Origin: Pseudothermotoga thermarum DSM 5069
GTDB lineage: Bacteria > Thermotogota > Thermotogae > Thermotogales > DSM-5069
DNA: 64,000 bases
Assembly: GCF_000217815.1 (NCBI RefSeq)
Contig: NC_015707.1
Location: 1,724,014 to 1,788,013 of the forward strand
Direction: 5' to 3'
Each line of letters opens with the position of its first letter. The stretch's first letter is position 1. This document shows positions 28,858-36,506 of the stretch, piece by piece. The notes under the pieces were generated by a model. The model had not been told where the DNA came from. It saw nothing but the letters and a program-made list of their open reading frames with translations, and did not search any database. A program made the position numbers and the translations under genes.

Positions 28858-30306
28858 TTATTGTGTGAAACGAATTAACTCGAATATGCTTTCCATATCT
28901 ATGCTATTCGTGAAGTGATATGCAATGAGCTCTATTTGTGCATCAAGGTCATACCTTTTTATTGCGTCTAAACTTTTTCCCTTCTCTTCTGCAACCATAG
29001 TGAAATACTTTTCAAAAAACTGATGATTGTGGAACAAGTGGTGAAAGCAAGTACCAATTATCCTGTCGAGTATCACACCGTCAAAATTCTCGGTTGGAGC
29101 GTTGTTCTTTTTGAAGATGATAGCAAAAGGTTTAACGTCTTTAGTCGGTGTTGAAATTCCCCTGTGAATCTCGTATCCTTCCACAATTGTTCCGAAAAGA
29201 TTTTCTTTGCCGGTAAGCCAGCAGGTGATCTTGTAAGGGTGAAAAACTGTTTCGATTGGTAACAGACCGAGTCCATCCTCTCGATTTACAACTTTACCGT
29301 TTTGATCCAATTCTATAAGTTTTTCTCCTAAAATTTGAAAACCACCACATATTCCAATTAAAAAGGCTTTGTTTTTGAGGCTTTTAAGTATTGCATCCTT
29401 TTTGTTTTTTAACCACCTTAGATCGTGAATGGGCAACTTTGTACCTGGGATTATTATCACATCGGTGTCACTTCGAGGTTCCTCAACAAGTGCGACATCG
29501 AAATTCTCGAAAAGCGGATCAAAATCAAAGGTGTTTGAAAACCGCGGAAGTTTTATGATATCGACTTTTAACTCGCTTTGAACACCTATTTTTTTCGATA
29601 AGATATCTTCTTCAGGTAAATTGTGCTCGATATATGTAACCGTCCCGAGAAACCTCGTGTTGTAGCGCTTAGCAAGTTTTTCTGGATAATCTTGTAAAAG
29701 CGTTGGATCGCCATGAAATTTATTAAACAAAAAACCTTTGATGAGATCTCGCTCCTCATCATCCAAAAGTTCAAATGTTCCAGCAACTTGCGCGAAAGCC
29801 CCTCCATTGCTGATGTCTGCTATTAGAATGGCAGGACAGTTTAAAATTTTTGCAAGAGTGATATTGTTGATCTCTCTTTCCTTCAAATTTATCTCAGCTG
29901 TGCCACCGCTGCCTTCAAGAATCACGATTTCATAACTTTTGGCAAGTTCATTGAAAGATTCTAGAACTATGTTGAGAAGTTCTAACTTTTTATCGTACAT
30001 GTATCTTCTGTTGGATTTCTCGAAATCAATTGGTTTACCTTTCGCAATGATTTCAATGCCTTGTACGTCTGGTTTTAACAGGATTGGATTCATCAAAACA
30101 GACGGCACCGTTCTTGCGGCAATTGCTTGAATATACTGAGAAAGTGCCATTTCTCCGCCTTCAACTGATACAATGCTGTTTAGAGACATGTTTTGTGCTT
30201 TAAATGGGGCTACTTTGTATCCTAGGTTTGAAAAATATCTACACAAGGCTACGGTGAAAAGAGATTTTCCAACGTTCGACATTGTTCCAAGAATCATTAG
30301 TTTCAT
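28858..30306 (-). CDS. cobQ: Cobyric acid synthase
   Basis: CobQ amidates four side chains of adenosylcobyrinate diamide. The 482-aa protein starts with the dethiobiotin-synthetase-like ATPase domain (ILGTMSNVGKSLFTVALCRYF; KAQNMSLNS). It ends with a class I amidotransferase domain that has the nucleophile in GICGGFQILG and a later His-X-Leu-Phe-His (HHLFHNH). It is transcribed away from the riboswitch-controlled cbiB operon. With no corrin-ring genes nearby, it may act on salvaged or imported precursors. ATG 30306 has AGGGG upstream. Confidence 0.93.
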   Translation of the reverse strand: MKLMILGTMSNVGKSLFTVALCRYFSNLGYKVAPFKAQNMSLNSIVSVEGGEMALSQYIQAIAARTVPSVLMNPILLKPDVQGIEIIAKGKPIDFEKSNRRYMYDKKLELLNIVLESFNELAKSYEIVILEGSGGTAEINLKEREINNITLAKILNCPAILIADISNGGAFAQVAGTFELLDDEERDLIKGFLFNKFHGDPTLLQDYPEKLAKRYNTRFLGTVTYIEHNLPEEDILSKKIGVQSELKVDIIKLPRFSNTFDFDPLFENFDVALVEEPRSDTDVIIIPGTKLPIHDLRWLKNKKDAILKSLKNKAFLIGICGGFQILGEKLIELDQNGKVVNREDGLGLLPIETVFHPYKITCWLTGKENLFGTIVEGYEIHRGISTPTKDVKPFAIIFKKNNAPTENFDGVILDRIIGTCFHHLFHNHQFFEKYFTMVAEEKGKSLDAIKRYDLDAQIELIAYHFTNSIDMESIFELIRFTQ

Positions 30307-30327
30307 AGCTGATTACCCCTATATTTA

Positions 30328-30336
30328 TGATATTAT
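30328..30336 (+). promoter_or_regulatory. Extended -10 promoter before the cobalamin riboswitch
   Basis: TGATATTAT forms an extended -10 box 20 bases before the first riboswitch stem, with CTGATT as a possible -35 at 16 bases. The position fits a leader transcript beginning near 30343. Confidence 0.5.
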
Positions 30337-30355
30337 TGTTCTGAAGTAATAAGAG

Positions 30356-30498
30356 CTCCAAATCGCGGGGAAGCTGGTGAAAATCCAGCGCCGGGCCGCG
30401 ACCGTGAGTGGGGACGAAACTCGCAAAAGCCACTGGCTTAGGCTGGGAAGGCGCGAGGAGTAGGATGATCCACGAGCCGGGATACCTGCGATTTGGAG
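30356..30498 (+). promoter_or_regulatory. Cobalamin (B12) riboswitch aptamer
   Basis: The 143-base leader is closed by an 11-base P1 stem (CTCCAAATCGC 30356-30366 with GCGATTTGGAG 30488-30498). Inside are the conserved aptamer elements: GGTGAAAATCCAGCGC, GGCCGCGACCGTGA, GCCACTGG, GGGAAGGCGCG and the B12 box GAGCCGGGATACCTGC (30474-30489). It should bind adenosylcobalamin and lower expression of the downstream salvage operon through the terminator that follows. Confidence 0.96.
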
Positions 30499-30505
30499 AA
30501 TCAAA

Positions 30506-30543
30506 GCTACTTCCACGGTCCCTGGAAGTAGCGGTTTTTCTTT
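30506..30543 (+). terminator. Riboswitch-controlled terminator
   Basis: A perfect ten-base stem GCTACTTCCA / TGGAAGTAGC (30506-30532) with a seven-base loop is followed by TTTTTCTTT. It stands 7 bases after the aptamer and 33 bases before the nearest standard cbiB start, the expected place for transcription attenuation when cobalamin is bound. Confidence 0.9.
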
Positions 30544-30575
30544 GCAGTTTGGAGGGATGAATTATAAACGAGAAA

Positions 30576-31445
30576 TTGATTGTTTTTCTTGGAGCAGTTT
30601 TGCTAGATTTGTTGTTCGGCGAGCCTCAAAATCTTCTCCATCCAGTTTACTACATTGGAAGAATCGGGAGCTTTTTGGACAAAGCGAGAGAAAAAGTGAC
30701 CAACAAAGTTTTGCTTTTTGTGCTGGGAATGTCGGCTTTGATAGTTGAAGCTTTGCTGTGGTTAGCTTTGATTTTGCTGGTTCAAAGGTTAACCTATCCA
30801 GTTAGAATCGTGCTGTCAATAATCTTGTTCAAATTTTCATTTTCAATAAGAGGTTTGTACGAGCACGTCCATAGATGTTTCACAGATGATGTTGAAGCGC
30901 TTAGAAAAAACGTTTCCCTTATAGTTAGCCGTGATGTTTCAAAGCTTGATAAATGGCATCTTTATTCAGCTGCACTTGAGAGCCTTTCTGAGAATTTGTC
31001 CGATGCCATAACAGGTCCGTGGTTTTATTTTATTTTACTCGGTCTTCCAGGTGCTTGGTTATACAGGGTTGTCAACACTTACGATGCTTTGTTTGGGTAC
31101 AGAAACGACAGGTACGAATGGTTTGGCAAGTTCGCCGCGAGAATGGATGATGCTCTAAACTTCATTCCATCTAGGATCAGTTGCTTTTTCATCTTACTGT
31201 TCAATCCAAAAAGGGCTCTAAATTATGTTCGAAAATACGGTCCTGTAAAGATCAACGCCACTTATCCCATGAGTGCTTTTGCAGGTGTACTTGGCGTGAA
31301 ATTTGAAAAAATTGGCTATTACTCTTTTGAAGGGAGAGAACCCACCAAAGAGGACATTTTGAAAGGGTTAAGACTTTATAAGTACGTGGTTTTGGTTATG
31401 TTTTTCACGATGATTGCTTTTCTATGGAGGTTTAAACTATGGTGA
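30576..31445 (+). CDS. cbiB: Adenosylcobinamide-phosphate synthase
   Basis: CbiB joins aminopropanol phosphate to adenosylcobyric acid. The 289-aa integral membrane protein has the family N-terminus LLDLLFGEPQNLLHPVYYIGRIGSFLD, the motif LVSRDVSKLDKWHLYSAALESLSENLSDAITGP (read here as IVSRD) and AKFAARMDDALNFIPSRI-like text near residue 185. The first standard start in frame is TTG 30576, but it lies 19 bases from the only ribosome site, GGAGGG (30551-30556). The frame stays open upstream through INEK, with ATA at 30564 at ideal spacing, so translation may begin there. It is the first gene of the riboswitch operon. Confidence 0.92.
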   Translation: MIVFLGAVLLDLLFGEPQNLLHPVYYIGRIGSFLDKAREKVTNKVLLFVLGMSALIVEALLWLALILLVQRLTYPVRIVLSIILFKFSFSIRGLYEHVHRCFTDDVEALRKNVSLIVSRDVSKLDKWHLYSAALESLSENLSDAITGPWFYFILLGLPGAWLYRVVNTYDALFGYRNDRYEWFGKFAARMDDALNFIPSRISCFFILLFNPKRALNYVRKYGPVKINATYPMSAFAGVLGVKFEKIGYYSFEGREPTKEDILKGLRLYKYVVLVMFFTMIAFLWRFKLW

Positions 31446-32467
31446 TCCACGGTGGGATTAGAGAGAAGGATTTCTTGGATTTTTCGATTTCCGTTAATCC
31501 TTTTGTGCCAGAATGGTTCGAAGATCTTTCCAAGTTGAACGAGGATCTTAGAAGGTACACTTACATTGAATGGTTGGAAGAAAATTTTCAAAATACTTTT
31601 GGAAACGACACGGTGATAGTAGCAGGTGCTATGGAGGCTTTGCACATAATCGGATGGGAGTTTTTCAAGGACAGTGTGGTTTTCATACCTGTGCCGAACT
31701 ATTACGAATACTTTCGTGTTGCAAGTTTTTCAAGCTTTGGAATAGTCAAAGTACCAATGGTTGAAAATTGTGAGTACAAAGTTGAAAATTTCGAAAAACT
31801 TCTGAAGCTTGTGGAAAAATACAGAAAGATTGGCAAGAGAATGTGTTTTATCACATCGAATCCAAATAACCCAACTGGAATTTTTCTTGATCTATCTGAA
31901 CTTTTGAACACTTTAGTTGATAAGGGTGTTCTATGCATAATCGACGAAGCCTTTTTGGATTTCGTTGATGAAGAAAAATTAAGATCTTTTGAAAATAATT
32001 TGAAGGTATCAAAGCAGATAATAAGACTTAGAACCTTTACAAAAAGTTTTGGTTTGCCAGGTGTTAGAGTTGGGTACGTCAAAAGCGCCGAATACAAAAA
32101 TGTTTTCCTTTCTCGAAGAATGCCTTGGGCAGTGGGTGGAACAGGTTATGTGTTTCTTGAAAAGTTGCTAGCCAACGATTGGAAAGATTTTTTGAAAAGA
32201 ACAAAGAAATACATCAAAAACGAGATGAAGAAATTCGCGAGTTTCGATTTTTTCAAGTCAGATGCAAATTATTTTATGGTGAAAGTCAAAGAAATTGACA
32301 AAGTGCTTGATTTTTTAAGATTACATCGAATATCTGTCAGAGATGCTAGAAGTTTCGAGATAGGAGATTTTATAAGAATTGGAATTAAGGATAGTCAAGC
32401 CAACGATTTTCTTCTTGAAAAACTTAAAGAAATATCAAATCTCTTGGTTATGAAGGAAGGTGGATGA
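31439..32467 (+). CDS. cobD: L-threonine-O-3-phosphate decarboxylase (PLP enzyme), CobD type
   Basis: This 342-aa fold type I PLP enzyme resembles histidinol-phosphate aminotransferases. By context it should be the CobD decarboxylase that makes (R)-1-amino-2-propanol phosphate for CbiB. The start MVIHGG is the CobD hallmark ('HGG' near the N-terminus). TSNPNNPTG, IIDEAFLDF and the PLP-lysine motif FTKSFGLPGVRVGY are clear. It overlaps cbiB by 7 bases. An aminotransferase role cannot be excluded by sequence alone, but the cluster makes decarboxylation likely. Confidence 0.88.
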   Translation: MVIHGGIREKDFLDFSISVNPFVPEWFEDLSKLNEDLRRYTYIEWLEENFQNTFGNDTVIVAGAMEALHIIGWEFFKDSVVFIPVPNYYEYFRVASFSSFGIVKVPMVENCEYKVENFEKLLKLVEKYRKIGKRMCFITSNPNNPTGIFLDLSELLNTLVDKGVLCIIDEAFLDFVDEEKLRSFENNLKVSKQIIRLRTFTKSFGLPGVRVGYVKSAEYKNVFLSRRMPWAVGGTGYVFLEKLLANDWKDFLKRTKKYIKNEMKKFASFDFFKSDANYFMVKVKEIDKVLDFLRLHRISVRDARSFEIGDFIRIGIKDSQANDFLLEKLKEISNLLVMKEGG

Positions 32468-32977
32468 ATGGCTTACGTTCATGTTTACACCGGTAACGGA
32501 AAAGGCAAGACTACGGCGGCTTTTGGCTTGGCAGTCAGAGCTGCGTGCGCTGGATTAAAAGTTTACATCGGTCAGTTCATCAAAGGAATGAAATATAGCG
32601 AGCTTGACATTGTCAAGTACTTTCCAAACATCGAACTTGAACAATTTGGAAGAGGGTGTTTCATCAAAGGAAAGCCGGATGAGCTTGACGTAAAGCTTGC
32701 AAGGGAAGGGCTGAAAAAGGTTGAAGAGAAGCTTACGAGCGGAAAGTACGATTTAGTTATCTTGGATGAAGCGAACATAGCGATTTATTTTAATCTTTTC
32801 ACCGTTCAAGAGTTGATAGGGGTTTTAAACAAACGCTCTGAAAGAACTGAGGTTGTGGTGACTGGCAGGTACGCTCCAAAAGAATTGATAGACTACGCCG
32901 ACCTTGTGACGGAGATGGTCGAAGTTAAACATTACTACACAAAGGGTGTTATGGCAAGAAAAGGGATAGAATTTTGA
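32468..32977 (+). CDS. cobO: Cob(I)alamin adenosyltransferase, CobA/BtuR type
   Basis: The 169-aa enzyme transfers the adenosyl group from ATP to Co(I) corrinoids. The reversed P-loop-like ATP site GNGKGKTTAAFGLAVRA is diagnostic, and VILDEANIAI and VTGRYAPKELIDYADLVTEM are family motifs. ATG 32468 follows the cobD stop at once, with AAGGAAGGTGG upstream. Confidence 0.95.
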   Translation: MAYVHVYTGNGKGKTTAAFGLAVRAACAGLKVYIGQFIKGMKYSELDIVKYFPNIELEQFGRGCFIKGKPDELDVKLAREGLKKVEEKLTSGKYDLVILDEANIAIYFNLFTVQELIGVLNKRSERTEVVVTGRYAPKELIDYADLVTEMVEVKHYYTKGVMARKGIEF

Positions 32978-32995: not shown

Positions 32996-33634
32996 ATGAT
33001 TTTTTGCTCTTGGAGCGGAGGAAAGGACAGTTGCCTAGCTTTGTACTACGGTATTAAAACCTTTGGAAAGGTCGATTTGCTTTTTACAATGCTTCATGAA
33101 GACTGCGATAGGTCAAGGGCCCATGGAATAAAAAAAGAGCTTTTCAAAAATCAAGCAAGCAGTTTGAAAATTCCATGGCATTTTGAATGTGCTACCTGGG
33201 ATGATTATGAGAAAGTTTTTCTAAACTTTTTGGACAATTATGCTAAAGGCGGAATAGGGATCTTTGGGGACATAGACCTAGAAGAACACAGAAATTGGGT
33301 GGAAAGAGTTTGCATGCAGAAAAGTGTGAGGGTTTTTGAACCACTTTGGAAAAAAGATAGAGAGAAAATCTTAAAGGAATTTGTAGACCTTGGTTTTAAA
33401 GCATTAGTGGTAGCTGTTTCAAAAAAATTTCCACACGCAAAAGTCCTTCTTGGTAAAAGTTTAAGCTGTGAAACAATTGAACTCATCAAAAGTTTGAGGA
33501 TTGATATTTGTGGAGAAAATGGAGAATACCATACTTTTGTGTATGATGGACCAATATTCGAAAAGCCTGTACAGTTCAAGGTTTTGGATATTGTTGAAAC
33601 TGAAACAAGTTGGCTTTTGGATTTGAGGGGGTAA
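32996..33634 (+). CDS. PP-loop ATPase of the diphthine-ammonia-ligase-like (COG2102) family
   Basis: The 212-aa protein starts with an ATP pyrophosphatase PP-loop, SGGKDS at residues 7-12, and carries the Dph6-like C-terminal pattern (FGDIDLEEHRNWVERVC, EPLWKKDREKILKEFVDLGF, CGENGEYHTFVYDGPIF). Archaeal and eukaryotic relatives amidate diphthine, but bacteria have no diphthamide. In this operon an amidation or adenylation step on a corrinoid or nucleotide-loop intermediate is more likely. It lies between cobO and cobT and is spaced 18 and 5 bases from them. The exact reaction is unknown. Confidence 0.78.
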   Translation: MIFCSWSGGKDSCLALYYGIKTFGKVDLLFTMLHEDCDRSRAHGIKKELFKNQASSLKIPWHFECATWDDYEKVFLNFLDNYAKGGIGIFGDIDLEEHRNWVERVCMQKSVRVFEPLWKKDREKILKEFVDLGFKALVVAVSKKFPHAKVLLGKSLSCETIELIKSLRIDICGENGEYHTFVYDGPIFEKPVQFKVLDIVETETSWLLDLRG

Positions 33635-33639
33635 GTAAG

Positions 33640-34668
33640 ATGGATCGTAAAGAACTTGAAAAAATGATAATCAACAGGTTGAACAATCTCACAAAACCTG
33701 TTGGAAGCCTTGGCGAACTTGAAAGAATTGCTTTAAAGATTGGATTGATACAGCAAAAGGTTATACCAGAGCTTTTCAAGGACAAAAGGATTTATGTTTT
33801 TGCGGCAGATCATGGGGTTACAGAATGTAGTATTTCGGCTTATCCAAGGGAAGTTACAAAGCAAATGGTTTTCAATTTTTTGAACGGAGGGGCAGCGATC
33901 AATGTTTTTGCAAAGCATGTTGGGGCAAAAGTCTTCGTCGTGGATGCTGGTGTCGATGCAGATTTTGAAGATCATCCATTTTTGATAAAACGAAAAGTTG
34001 GATACGCTACTAAAAACATAGCATTCGGACCAGCGATGAGTAAAGAAGAAGCTGTCAAATGTATTCAATACGGAAGGGAAATAGCAAGGTCGGCTATATT
34101 ACAAGGAGCAGATTTGTTGGTGGTTGGGGATATGGGAATCGGAAATACAACGATTGCAGCTGCAATTGCAGCTGCGTTTGGATTCGATGTGGATGAGGTT
34201 GTTGACATTGGAACACCTATTGACCAGAAAACTTTGGAAAGGAAAAAACAGGTGGTTAGGCAAGCCCTTGAGGTGAACAAACCAGACAGAAAAGATGCAA
34301 TAGATGTGCTTTCAAAAGTTGGTGGTTTCTGCATTGGTCAGATGGTTGGTTTTATACTTGAAGCCTGTGAAAATCGTTGTCCTGTTGTTGTGGACGGTTT
34401 TCCAACAACGGCAGCACTTTTGATTGCCTATGAAATGAACAAAAACATTTTAGATTTTGTCTTTGCAGGTCATAAGTCGAAAGTCAAAGGTCATGAGGTT
34501 ATGTTGAAATACTTGGGGTTAAGACCCATATTGGATTTAGAAATGAGGCTTGGCGAAGGTACAGGGGCAGCCTTGGCTATCTCAATCATCGAAGCTGCCA
34601 TAAAGATGATTTCACAGATGGCAACTTTTGAATCTGCTGGAGTATCAAAAGGGAGTGATCAAACTTGA
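33640..34668 (+). CDS. cobT: Nicotinate-nucleotide-dimethylbenzimidazole phosphoribosyltransferase
   Basis: CobT activates the lower ligand base (dimethylbenzimidazole or another) to its alpha-ribotide phosphate. The 342-aa protein shows LTKPVGSLGELERIA, VFAADHGVTECSISAYPREVT, GDMGIGNTTIAAAI and the C-terminal LRLGEGTGAALA-type motif (here LEMRLGEGTGAALA). I use ATG 33640 with GAGGGGGTAAG upstream; an upstream in-frame TTG has no ribosome site. It overlaps cobU by 4 bases. Confidence 0.94.
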   Translation: MDRKELEKMIINRLNNLTKPVGSLGELERIALKIGLIQQKVIPELFKDKRIYVFAADHGVTECSISAYPREVTKQMVFNFLNGGAAINVFAKHVGAKVFVVDAGVDADFEDHPFLIKRKVGYATKNIAFGPAMSKEEAVKCIQYGREIARSAILQGADLLVVGDMGIGNTTIAAAIAAAFGFDVDEVVDIGTPIDQKTLERKKQVVRQALEVNKPDRKDAIDVLSKVGGFCIGQMVGFILEACENRCPVVVDGFPTTAALLIAYEMNKNILDFVFAGHKSKVKGHEVMLKYLGLRPILDLEMRLGEGTGAALAISIIEAAIKMISQMATFESAGVSKGSDQT

Positions 34669-35165
34669 TTTTGATAACCGGTGGTGTAAAATCTGGAAAA
34701 AGCAGAAAAGCTTTGGAAATAGCAAAAAAGTTTGAAAAGCGTGCTTTCATCGCCACAGGAGTTGGCTTTGATAAAGAGATGAAAGAGAGAATCGAAAGAC
34801 ACAAAAAAGAAAGAGGGGATGATTTTGTAACCTTTGAAGAACCTTTAAAGATATATGAGGTCATCTCAAGGATAAAAGATCAGTTTGATGTGATCGTTGT
34901 GGATTGTTTAACAACATGGCTTGGAAATTTGTTTTTTGAATATCAAGATGATTTTGAAACGATAGAGCGCCATGTGAACCTTTTACTTGAAAATCTTTGT
35001 GGAAAGGAGCTGATCGTAACCAACGAAGTTGGCCTTGGGGTGATTCCGGCAGACTTTGTTACTAGAAAGTATGTTGAAACACTTGGAAAGTTAAACTCTT
35101 TGATAGCACAAAGATGCGACGAAGTGTATCTAATGGTTTGTGGAATAGGGGTCAGGATAAAATGA
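34665..35165 (+). CDS. cobU: Adenosylcobinamide kinase / adenosylcobinamide-phosphate guanylyltransferase
   Basis: CobU phosphorylates adenosylcobinamide and then adds GMP. The 166-aa protein has the P-loop GGVKSGKS near the N-terminus, RIERHKKERGDDFVTFEEP with the guanylylated His, VDCLTTWLGNL (Walker B) and TNEVGLGVIP. It starts at TTG 34665, overlapping the cobT stop. The kinase function indicates that cobinamide salvage is possible. Confidence 0.94.
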   Translation: MILITGGVKSGKSRKALEIAKKFEKRAFIATGVGFDKEMKERIERHKKERGDDFVTFEEPLKIYEVISRIKDQFDVIVVDCLTTWLGNLFFEYQDDFETIERHVNLLLENLCGKELIVTNEVGLGVIPADFVTRKYVETLGKLNSLIAQRCDEVYLMVCGIGVRIK

Positions 35166-35800
35166 AACAACTTCTTGGAAGTACTTCTTGGCTTGTAGCT
35201 GGTACGTACTACGAAAACGCGAAGTTGGTTGTCAACAAGGTTGATTTTGTGGAACTTTTGGTCTACGCTTGGGATGAGGAAACGAAGAAGTTGATAGAAG
35301 ATGAAATGAACGGCCTTGTGGAACTTCAGTCGAAAGGGCTTTTTTACACTGTTCATTTGCCTACAGATGACGCTCTCATGGCTTTGCAGGCTTTTAGGTA
35401 TTTTGAAAATTCCCCGATGAAGATTTTAAATTACGTGCTTCATCCCATGAATGGGCTTGATGAATTGCTTTTGAATAGCAAAAAAGTTTCTATCGAAAAT
35501 TTGACAGAAAAGTTCGTCGAACATGAAAGAATCACGTTCGACGTAGGGCATTATTTTCTTGGTGTGAAAAATTCAAAAGTTCTTCCAGAAAAAATTGTCG
35601 AACTTCACATGATGGGATTTGACGAACGGGCGAAAAAGGATCATCTACCGATCGACCGGAAAATGTTGAAGCTAATCAGGGATCGACTTTGGTTTGATAT
35701 TTGTAAAATTCCGTTGGTTTGCTTTGAGATATTCGACTTTGATCAAGTTTTAATGTCGATTAGGATATACAAAGAGGCGATGGAAGATGAGGTTCTTTGA
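35162..35800 (+). CDS. cbiR: CbiR-like cobamide-remodelling phosphodiesterase (AP-endonuclease/xylose-isomerase-like TIM barrel)
   Basis: The 212-aa protein is a short AP-endonuclease-2/xylose-isomerase-type TIM barrel. Candidate metal ligands fall at strand ends in the usual pattern: E31, H65, H94, E112, D127, H130, H149, D160, H161 and E189. CbiR, described in Akkermansia, belongs to this superfamily, is encoded among cobamide genes, and splits the nucleotide loop so that the lower ligand can be exchanged. The place between cobU and cobS is where such an enzyme is expected. Start ATG 35162 overlaps the cobU stop; the longer upstream frame lies inside cobU. The name is an inference from fold and context. 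Confidence 0.72.
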   Translation: MKQLLGSTSWLVAGTYYENAKLVVNKVDFVELLVYAWDEETKKLIEDEMNGLVELQSKGLFYTVHLPTDDALMALQAFRYFENSPMKILNYVLHPMNGLDELLLNSKKVSIENLTEKFVEHERITFDVGHYFLGVKNSKVLPEKIVELHMMGFDERAKKDHLPIDRKMLKLIRDRLWFDICKIPLVCFEIFDFDQVLMSIRIYKEAMEDEVL

Positions 35801-36506
35801 AAAATTTCTTTTGTCTTTGAGCTTTCTTTCAAGAATTCCTCTGAAGTTGCCCGAAAGGTATTTTTCCGACGATTCGTTGAAAAGTTCTGTTGTCTTTTTT
35901 CCAGCCGTAGGGTATCTTCCCGGGTTAATTTATTTGTTTTTGCTAAGTTTTGGTGATTTGTTGTCAAGATTTTTTGCTTTAGTTGTGGTCTTTTGGCTTT
36001 TTGACTTGTTTCACTTCGATGGGCTTTTGGATACACTGGATGGCTTTTTGAATCAGTCGAATAAGGAAAAAAGACTTGAAATAATGTCTAAAGGAAATGT
36101 TGGACCTTTTGCTGTGTTTTTTGGGATGCTTTATGTTGTTCTGCTGTGGGAACTGACCAGTTTAGTTGAACCAGTTTTCTTCCTTGTTGCAGCAGTGTTG
36201 GGAAGATGGGGAATGAACGTTTTATTGACGTTTTCAAAACCTGCAAAAACAACTGGACTAGCTTTTTCACTTTATCCAACAAGGAAGTTATACGCTGTTT
36301 TAGCACTTTTCTTCACGATTCCGTTGGTATTTGTTTGTCAAAAATGCTTCTTTGTTTTTGTTCTAATTGTTTTTGCTTTTTCAATGAGTTTTTCAAAGAT
36401 TTCGAATAAAAAGATAGGAGGAATAACCGGGGATGTACTTGGGGCAAGTTGCATGATCAATCAGCTATTGATTTTGCTTGCGGCTTATGTTATCAATGAA
36501 ATTTAG
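35787..36506 (+). CDS. cobS: Adenosylcobinamide-GDP ribazoletransferase (cobalamin synthase)
   Basis: CobS joins alpha-ribazole phosphate to adenosylcobinamide-GDP, the last ring-closing step. The 239-aa membrane protein has LLSLSFLSRIPLKLPE at the N-terminus and the CDP-alcohol-transferase-like motif FDLFHFDGLLDTLDGFL with conserved aspartates. Several hydrophobic helices follow, plus the C-terminal GGITGDVLGASCMINQ. ATG 35787 lies within the end of the CbiR-like gene. No terminator was seen before the convergent MFS gene. Confidence 0.94.
   Translation: MRFFEKFLLSLSFLSRIPLKLPERYFSDDSLKSSVVFFPAVGYLPGLIYLFLLSFGDLLSRFFALVVVFWLFDLFHFDGLLDTLDGFLNQSNKEKRLEIMSKGNVGPFAVFFGMLYVVLLWELTSLVEPVFFLVAAVLGRWGMNVLLTFSKPAKTTGLAFSLYPTRKLYAVLALFFTIPLVFVCQKCFFVFVLIVFAFSMSFSKISNKKIGGITGDVLGASCMINQLLILLAAYVINEI

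Follow-up and report, generated by a model that had tools for sequence, protein, structure and literature searches.

The gene at 35162..35800 on the plus strand of the window, the 64,000-nucleotide stretch of the Pseudothermotoga thermarum DSM 5069 genome that was analysed, encodes a 212-aa TIM-barrel protein that is very probably CbiR, a metal-dependent phosphodiesterase that would open imported cobamides for rebuilding. A match to the CbiR family model NF041277, an AlphaFold model, a fold match to the superfamily and a set of invariant Glu, His and Asp residues identify the protein, and family and gene context together point to the reaction. The finding is more than chance, because CbiR-type proteins occur in 20 of 61 genomes, their scores are separated by a gap from those of other superfamily proteins, and the gene order around them is conserved. 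The CbiR enzyme family is already known, and the window protein is a solid, fairly ordinary addition to it. A literature search, separate from the homologue table of PMC7733943, found no title on CbiR in Thermotogota, and in PMC7733943 the string 'Thermotog' occurs once, in the reference list. The group has been described as using cobinamide salvage (PMC3403396), and it very likely also remodels complete cobamides.

Identification of the cbiR gene

The cbiR open reading frame overlaps cobU (34665..35165) by 4 nt and cobS (35787..36506) by 14 nt, and all three genes are on the same strand. A sequence-only reading of this DNA had placed a 212-aa frame at 35162-35800 between cobU and cobS, and these coordinates proved exact. 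A longer version that starts from an ATG at 35114 and has 228 aa is possible; a start at 35162 or close by is favoured by the alignment of homologues. NF041277 was the only NCBIfam match of the protein at E ≤ 1 (E 4.7e-30, 104.9 bits), and the alignment covers residues 5-203 of the protein and positions 3-247 of the 249 in the model. The sequence-only reading had called for a search with a CbiR family model and had counted the lack of a hit against itself; the hit obtained is 0.1 bit short of the curated cut-off of 105 bits (101.5 bits in the genome search), a cut-off that is passed in every other CbiR-positive genome (19 of 20).

The panel consisted of the P. thermarum genome and 60 others from its family, order or class. 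The CbiR-type matches in 20 of these 61 genomes scored 101.5-158.3 bits, apart from a split match in G054 that reached 114.3 bits when joined. Other superfamily proteins of the 61 genomes scored at most 68.5 bits with the CbiR model, leaving a clear gap. In a tree of 33 CbiR rows and seven other barrels, the separating branch had weak support (88/66) and was found in 87% of 200 bootstrap trees, with long branches. A copy of the gene in a phage was dismissed, as no match was found among 50,697 phage records at E ≤ 1e-5.

The same fold is also used by sugar isomerases, epimerases and AP endonucleases, and the closest solved structures listed for the window protein are ketose epimerases and endonuclease IV. 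It is nevertheless highly improbable that the protein is one of these enzymes and lies in the operon by chance. It had no other NCBIfam match at E ≤ 1 and, in the Pfam search, no match to PF01261 (AP_endonuc_2) at E ≤ 1, a model that only one of 19 CbiR homologues reached at E ≤ 0.01. Three further members of the superfamily in this genome behaved differently and matched PF01261 well, at 84.2, 53.6 and 124.9 bits; two of them scored 51-53 bits with the CbiR model, and the nearest models of the third were sugar-epimerase models, below their cut-offs. The conservation of gene order across families and, in a second set of loci, across phyla also argues against a chance position.

Fold, conserved residues and compact shape

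The AlphaFold model, built from 25 sequences, is a barrel with eight strands (mean pLDDT 94.9, pTM 0.91), and the TIM barrel that had been read from the sequence is therefore borne out. A plain Foldseek search returned mixed TIM barrels with weak E-values, and the superfamily came to the top only after the candidates had been realigned. Realignment gave a D-tagatose 3-epimerase-like protein (Z 18.0, 197 residues, 2.8 A) and Thermotoga maritima endonuclease IV (Z 15.9, 205 residues, 3.6 A). On this modelled structure the protein aligns with the endonuclease IV/ketose-epimerase superfamily. It shares the fold with these enzymes but differs from them in lacking a match at E ≤ 1 to PF01261 or to another NCBIfam model and in its place in a conserved cobamide operon.

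E31, H65, H94, E112, D127, H130, H149, H161 and E189 are invariant in 19/19 and in 25/25 sequences, the window protein included, as expected from the full set of E/H/D ligands that had been noted earlier. D160 is conserved in at least 90% of the 19-sequence set and is off the nearly invariant list of the 25-sequence set. The nine invariant positions presumably correspond one-to-one to the zinc ligands of endonuclease IV.

The protein is compact. In the longer homologue L059 (226 aa, pLDDT 94.5) the stretches between strands 4/5, 5/6 and 6/7 form helices 91-108, 118-126 and 147-157, whereas the matching places of the window protein hold a short helix 100-104, no helix, and a short helix 128-133 only. 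On one side of the barrel the outer helices (4 to 6) are thus much reduced. Extra residues around helix 5 are present only in L058, L059 and L060 of the 25-sequence alignment, and the CbiR proteins of Desulfobulbus and Caldicoprobacter are compact as well. By these sequence comparisons, the compact form is common and not special to P. thermarum. No PDB sequence matched the CbiR family profile at E ≤ 0.01, and a compact and probably heat-stable CbiR is therefore a good target for a first structure; to judge from its relatives, the source organism is probably thermophilic. In a second profile search of the PDB, five sequences matched weakly (E ≤ 10), among them a xylose-isomerase-like barrel (E 1.9).

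The window protein resembles the CbiR of Akkermansia muciniphila (Amuc_1679) in its family model match, superfamily fold and conserved His, Asp and Glu residues. In both organisms cbiR lies among cobT, cobU, cobS and cbiB in a cell without ring synthesis, probably so in the case of P. thermarum. Unlike Amuc_1679, to which it is likened through the family model, the window protein is compact, with 212 aa against 249 model positions and with outer helices 4 to 6 reduced relative to L059. The A. muciniphila enzyme produces cobinamide phosphate (Cbi-P) and alpha-ribazole from adenosylcobalamin (AdoCbl), is inhibited by EDTA, and needs DTT and the absence of oxygen (PMC7733943).

Organization of the operon and its riboswitch

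The genes are arranged in the order riboswitch, terminator, cbiB, cobD-like, btuR, DUF71, cobT, cobU, cbiR, cobS. Control by a riboswitch had been proposed from the sequence, and a cobalamin riboswitch was indeed found at 30319..30507 (+), matching RF00174 over the full model length (88 bits against a cut-off of 31.5, E 2.3e-20). It is followed by a hairpin with a 10-pair stem and a T-run at 30506..30532 (+), which is likely the expression platform of the riboswitch; the terminator region folds at -16.9 kcal/mol (z -3.65).

The first gene, cbiB (30576..31445, +), encodes AdoCbi-P synthase (PF03186, 262.7 bits; TIGR00380, 252.1 bits against 165.9). The TTG at 30576 is a tentative start codon, a long way from the GGAGGG at 30551; an ATT in the same frame, at 30561, has the better position. 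The second gene (31439..32467, +) encodes a CobD/CobC-like enzyme of aminotransferase fold (PF00155, 93.6 bits; NF006225 'putative aminotransferase', 360 bits against 288), which scored 151.8 bits with the CobD model TIGR01140, under its cut-off of 290.55; the product is presumably threonine-phosphate decarboxylase. It is followed by btuR/cobA for corrinoid adenosyltransferase (32468..32977, +; PF02572, 217.1 bits; TIGR00708, 173 bits against 167.75) and by a gene for a DUF71/PF01902 PP-loop protein of the B12-linked type (32996..33634, +; PF01902, 152 bits), which carries ENGEYH at residue 174. The lower-ligand phosphoribosyltransferase gene cobT is at 33610..34668 (+; PF02277, 425.1 bits; TIGR03160, 426.8 bits against 319.3), and its true start may be the internal ATG at 33640. 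On either side of cbiR are cobU (+) for AdoCbi kinase/guanylyltransferase (PF02283, 170.8 bits against 27; NF004469, 158.1 bits, under 161) and cobS (+) for cobamide synthase (PF02654, 154.7 bits against 23.2; TIGR00317, 99.2 bits, under 110).

A full-length cobQ for cobyric acid synthase is divergent from the operon (28858..30306, -; NF001989, 454 bits against 273) and contains the GATase_3 and CbiA domains. Its start codon, at 30306 on the minus strand, is 12 bp from the 5' end of the riboswitch, and the cobQ leader must therefore run antisense to the riboswitch. The sole sigma-70-like match for the riboswitch (30302-30331) overlaps the cobQ start, and the number of such matches is about that expected by chance.

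Cobamide supply and use in the genome

The P. thermarum genome is a single contig of 2,039,943 bases. It contains one PF00590 protein, the 16S rRNA methyltransferase RsmI (TIGR00096), and neither CbiD nor a match to the CbiZ domain (PF01955), which also had no match in any of the 61 genomes of the panel and was matched in 5 of 14 control genomes. Therefore the organism probably salvages the corrin ring rather than making it, as far as its sequence indicates. The lack of corrin-ring genes that had been noted near cbiR thus extends to the whole 2.04-Mb genome for the families tested, and ring synthesis from elsewhere in the genome was rejected on the same two families, PF00590 and CbiD.

A second cobalamin riboswitch of the genome precedes genes for a periplasmic binding protein, a FecCD permease and an ATPase, which probably constitute a BtuF-C-D importer, although no B12-specific cut-off was passed. 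The B12 users of the genome are NrdJ (625.6 bits), a MetH-like protein, and the small subunit of methylmalonyl-CoA mutase with MeaB. With importer genes and B12-dependent enzymes, the predicted remodelling pathway has both an input and a use. The genome contains no BluB above the cut-off (best 46.4 bits against 150) and one CobC candidate for the final phosphatase, below its cut-off (130 bits against 162.9). Family, operon, probable importer genes and B12 users all lend support to the earlier suggestion that foreign cobamides are imported and rebuilt, with the activity predicted from sequence.

Proposed remodelling pathway

The reaction, its cellular role, the choice of lower base and the direction of regulation are inferred as follows. 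CbiR would cleave imported cobamides at the link from the aminopropanol phosphate to the riboside of the lower ligand, yielding adenosylcobinamide phosphate and an alpha-riboside. From the former product CobU would make AdoCbi-GDP, to which CobS would join a lower base taken from the cell's supply and activated by CobT. Foreign cobamides would in this way be converted to one that the organism's B12-dependent enzymes can use. When B12 is scarce, transcription would pass the riboswitch terminator and the cbiR operon would be switched on. Adenosylation by BtuR would be induced together with a second entry via cobyric acid, made up of the CobD-like protein, CbiB, DUF71 and CobQ.

Remodelling is started in other organisms by different enzymes. 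The amidohydrolase CbiZ would likewise start it but cuts an amide bond instead (PMC7733943), and none was found in the 61 genomes. In Vibrio cholerae, CobS itself is involved in remodelling (PMC7733943); in P. thermarum cobS adjoins cbiR.

Conservation of the locus

Apart from the window, 19 CbiR loci were compared: 18 have cobU-cbiR-cobS in this order, and 16 have cobT-cobU-cbiR-cobS. The gene cobT is missing at L045 and at L019, the latter on a 3.5-kb contig, and L055 has none of cobT, cobU and cobS as neighbours. At L045 a cobU-cbiR-cobS operon is present and no cobT was found within 16 kb. Conservation of the gene order reaches across families and, among the loci of a second set, across phyla. 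In that set, a named collection of 25 loci of which six are on the same contigs as the first set, 23 loci have cobamide genes near cbiR; L059 and L060 have no cobamide neighbours. An alpha-ribazole kinase was considered for the gene beside cbiR in L059, which had no family match, and is not proposed.

Of the 19 loci, 17 have a cobalamin riboswitch upstream, on the strand of the genes; L019 and L055 do not. In the relatives the riboswitch is followed by cobT (cobU in L045). The window differs in having the cbiB group first, with cbiR 4.6 kb downstream. Two insertions were seen between riboswitch and cobT: a HEARO RNA in L044 (6609-6813; RF02033, 154.6 bits), with little room for the usual ORF, and a transposase-like ORF on the opposite strand in L040 (6073-7230).

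CbiD was found in four CbiR genomes, G014, G016, G018 and G040, and these are all of the CbiD-positive genomes. The probable ring producers among the CbiR genomes may thus remodel too. A CbiR relative might instead act in quality control or turnover within the pathway, hydrolysing misassembled cobamides or the cobamide 5'-phosphates made by CobS. This would fit the position of cbiR beside cobU and cobS, and not beside an importer, in the loci examined, and also the presence of CbiR in all four genomes that probably make the ring. We consider it unlikely, since the characterised CbiR opens complete cobamides (PMC7733943) and 16 of the 20 CbiR genomes are without CbiD, so that foreign cobamides are a likely input. 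Remodelling of imported cobamides remains the preferred role of CbiR.

CbiB, DUF71 and two possible rebuilding routes

CbiB was found in 18 and DUF71 in 14 of the 61 genomes, and all 14 DUF71 genomes carry both CbiB and CbiR. Four of the 20 CbiR genomes (G003, G009, G051 and G057) are without CbiB, and none of these has DUF71. CbiB is present without CbiR in G046 and G058, and without DUF71 in G043, G046, G054 and G058, of which G043 is 81% and G054 71% complete. Fisher P values for the pairs of CbiR, CbiB and DUF71 were 1.4e-10 to 3.1e-9, which overstate independence because the genomes are related. By coordinates, 7 of the 14 genomes have DUF71 no more than 10 kb from cbiB, and 5 of the 14 have it that close to cbiR.

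The window DUF71 protein has both PF01902 and ENGE[FY]H, the combination that defines the DUF71-B12 type, for which PMC3541065 gives ENGEYH as the motif. ENGEYH is also found in the DUF71 proteins of L041, L044 and L047, and L043 reads EHGEYH. DUF71-B12 is a PP-loop protein of a fold family unrelated to CbiR, and its function was only predicted in 2012, when De Crecy-Lagard et al. proposed it for the CbiZ role from co-distribution (PMC3541065). Following that proposal, remodelling could proceed mainly on the amide side, with DUF71-B12 releasing cobyric acid, CobD and CbiB rebuilding it, and the CbiR-like protein having a minor or other role; ENGEYH in the window protein and the lack of CbiZ in all 61 genomes are in keeping with this. 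Such an arrangement is quite improbable, as both CbiB and DUF71 are missing from 4 of the 20 genomes that carry CbiR. The core set of G003 and G009 is among those that stand without them, so that CbiR must there do without that route. Because CbiR accompanies DUF71 in 14 of 14 genomes, DUF71-B12 is not needed to explain remodelling, and a role on the cobyric-acid side seems at least as likely for it as the CbiZ role. In this panel DUF71-B12 tracks CbiB rather than CbiR.

With CbiR retained as the enzyme that opens cobamides, these patterns suggest two separable rebuilding routes in the CbiR operons. Tentatively, one route would be a minimal core of cobT-cobU-cbiR-cobS with btuR, and DUF71-B12 would be a cobyric-acid-side enzyme that follows CbiB and does not have to replace the remodelling hydrolase. 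The second set, in the same tentative reading, would consist of the cobD-like gene, cbiB, DUF71-B12 and often cobQ or a CobQ without the glutaminase domain, present or absent largely together and not always in one place. As an example within this reading, DUF71-B12 may restore the amide groups of de-amidated corrinoids, compounds that would build up in hot habitats. In G003 and G009 the genes cobT-cobU-cbiR-cobS-btuR are present as a set, with CbiB and DUF71 missing. This fits the A. muciniphila enzyme, which makes Cbi-P directly and so bypasses the aminopropanol step (PMC7733943).

The CobQ proteins of these loci vary in length. In L039 (9810-10646) and L041 (9756-10658) a CobQ without GATase_3, as judged by Pfam, ends in a C-terminal tail resembling the one on the full-length protein. 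CobQ is of the same kind in L042, L043 and L047, judged by length, and it is full length in the window, L045 and L052.
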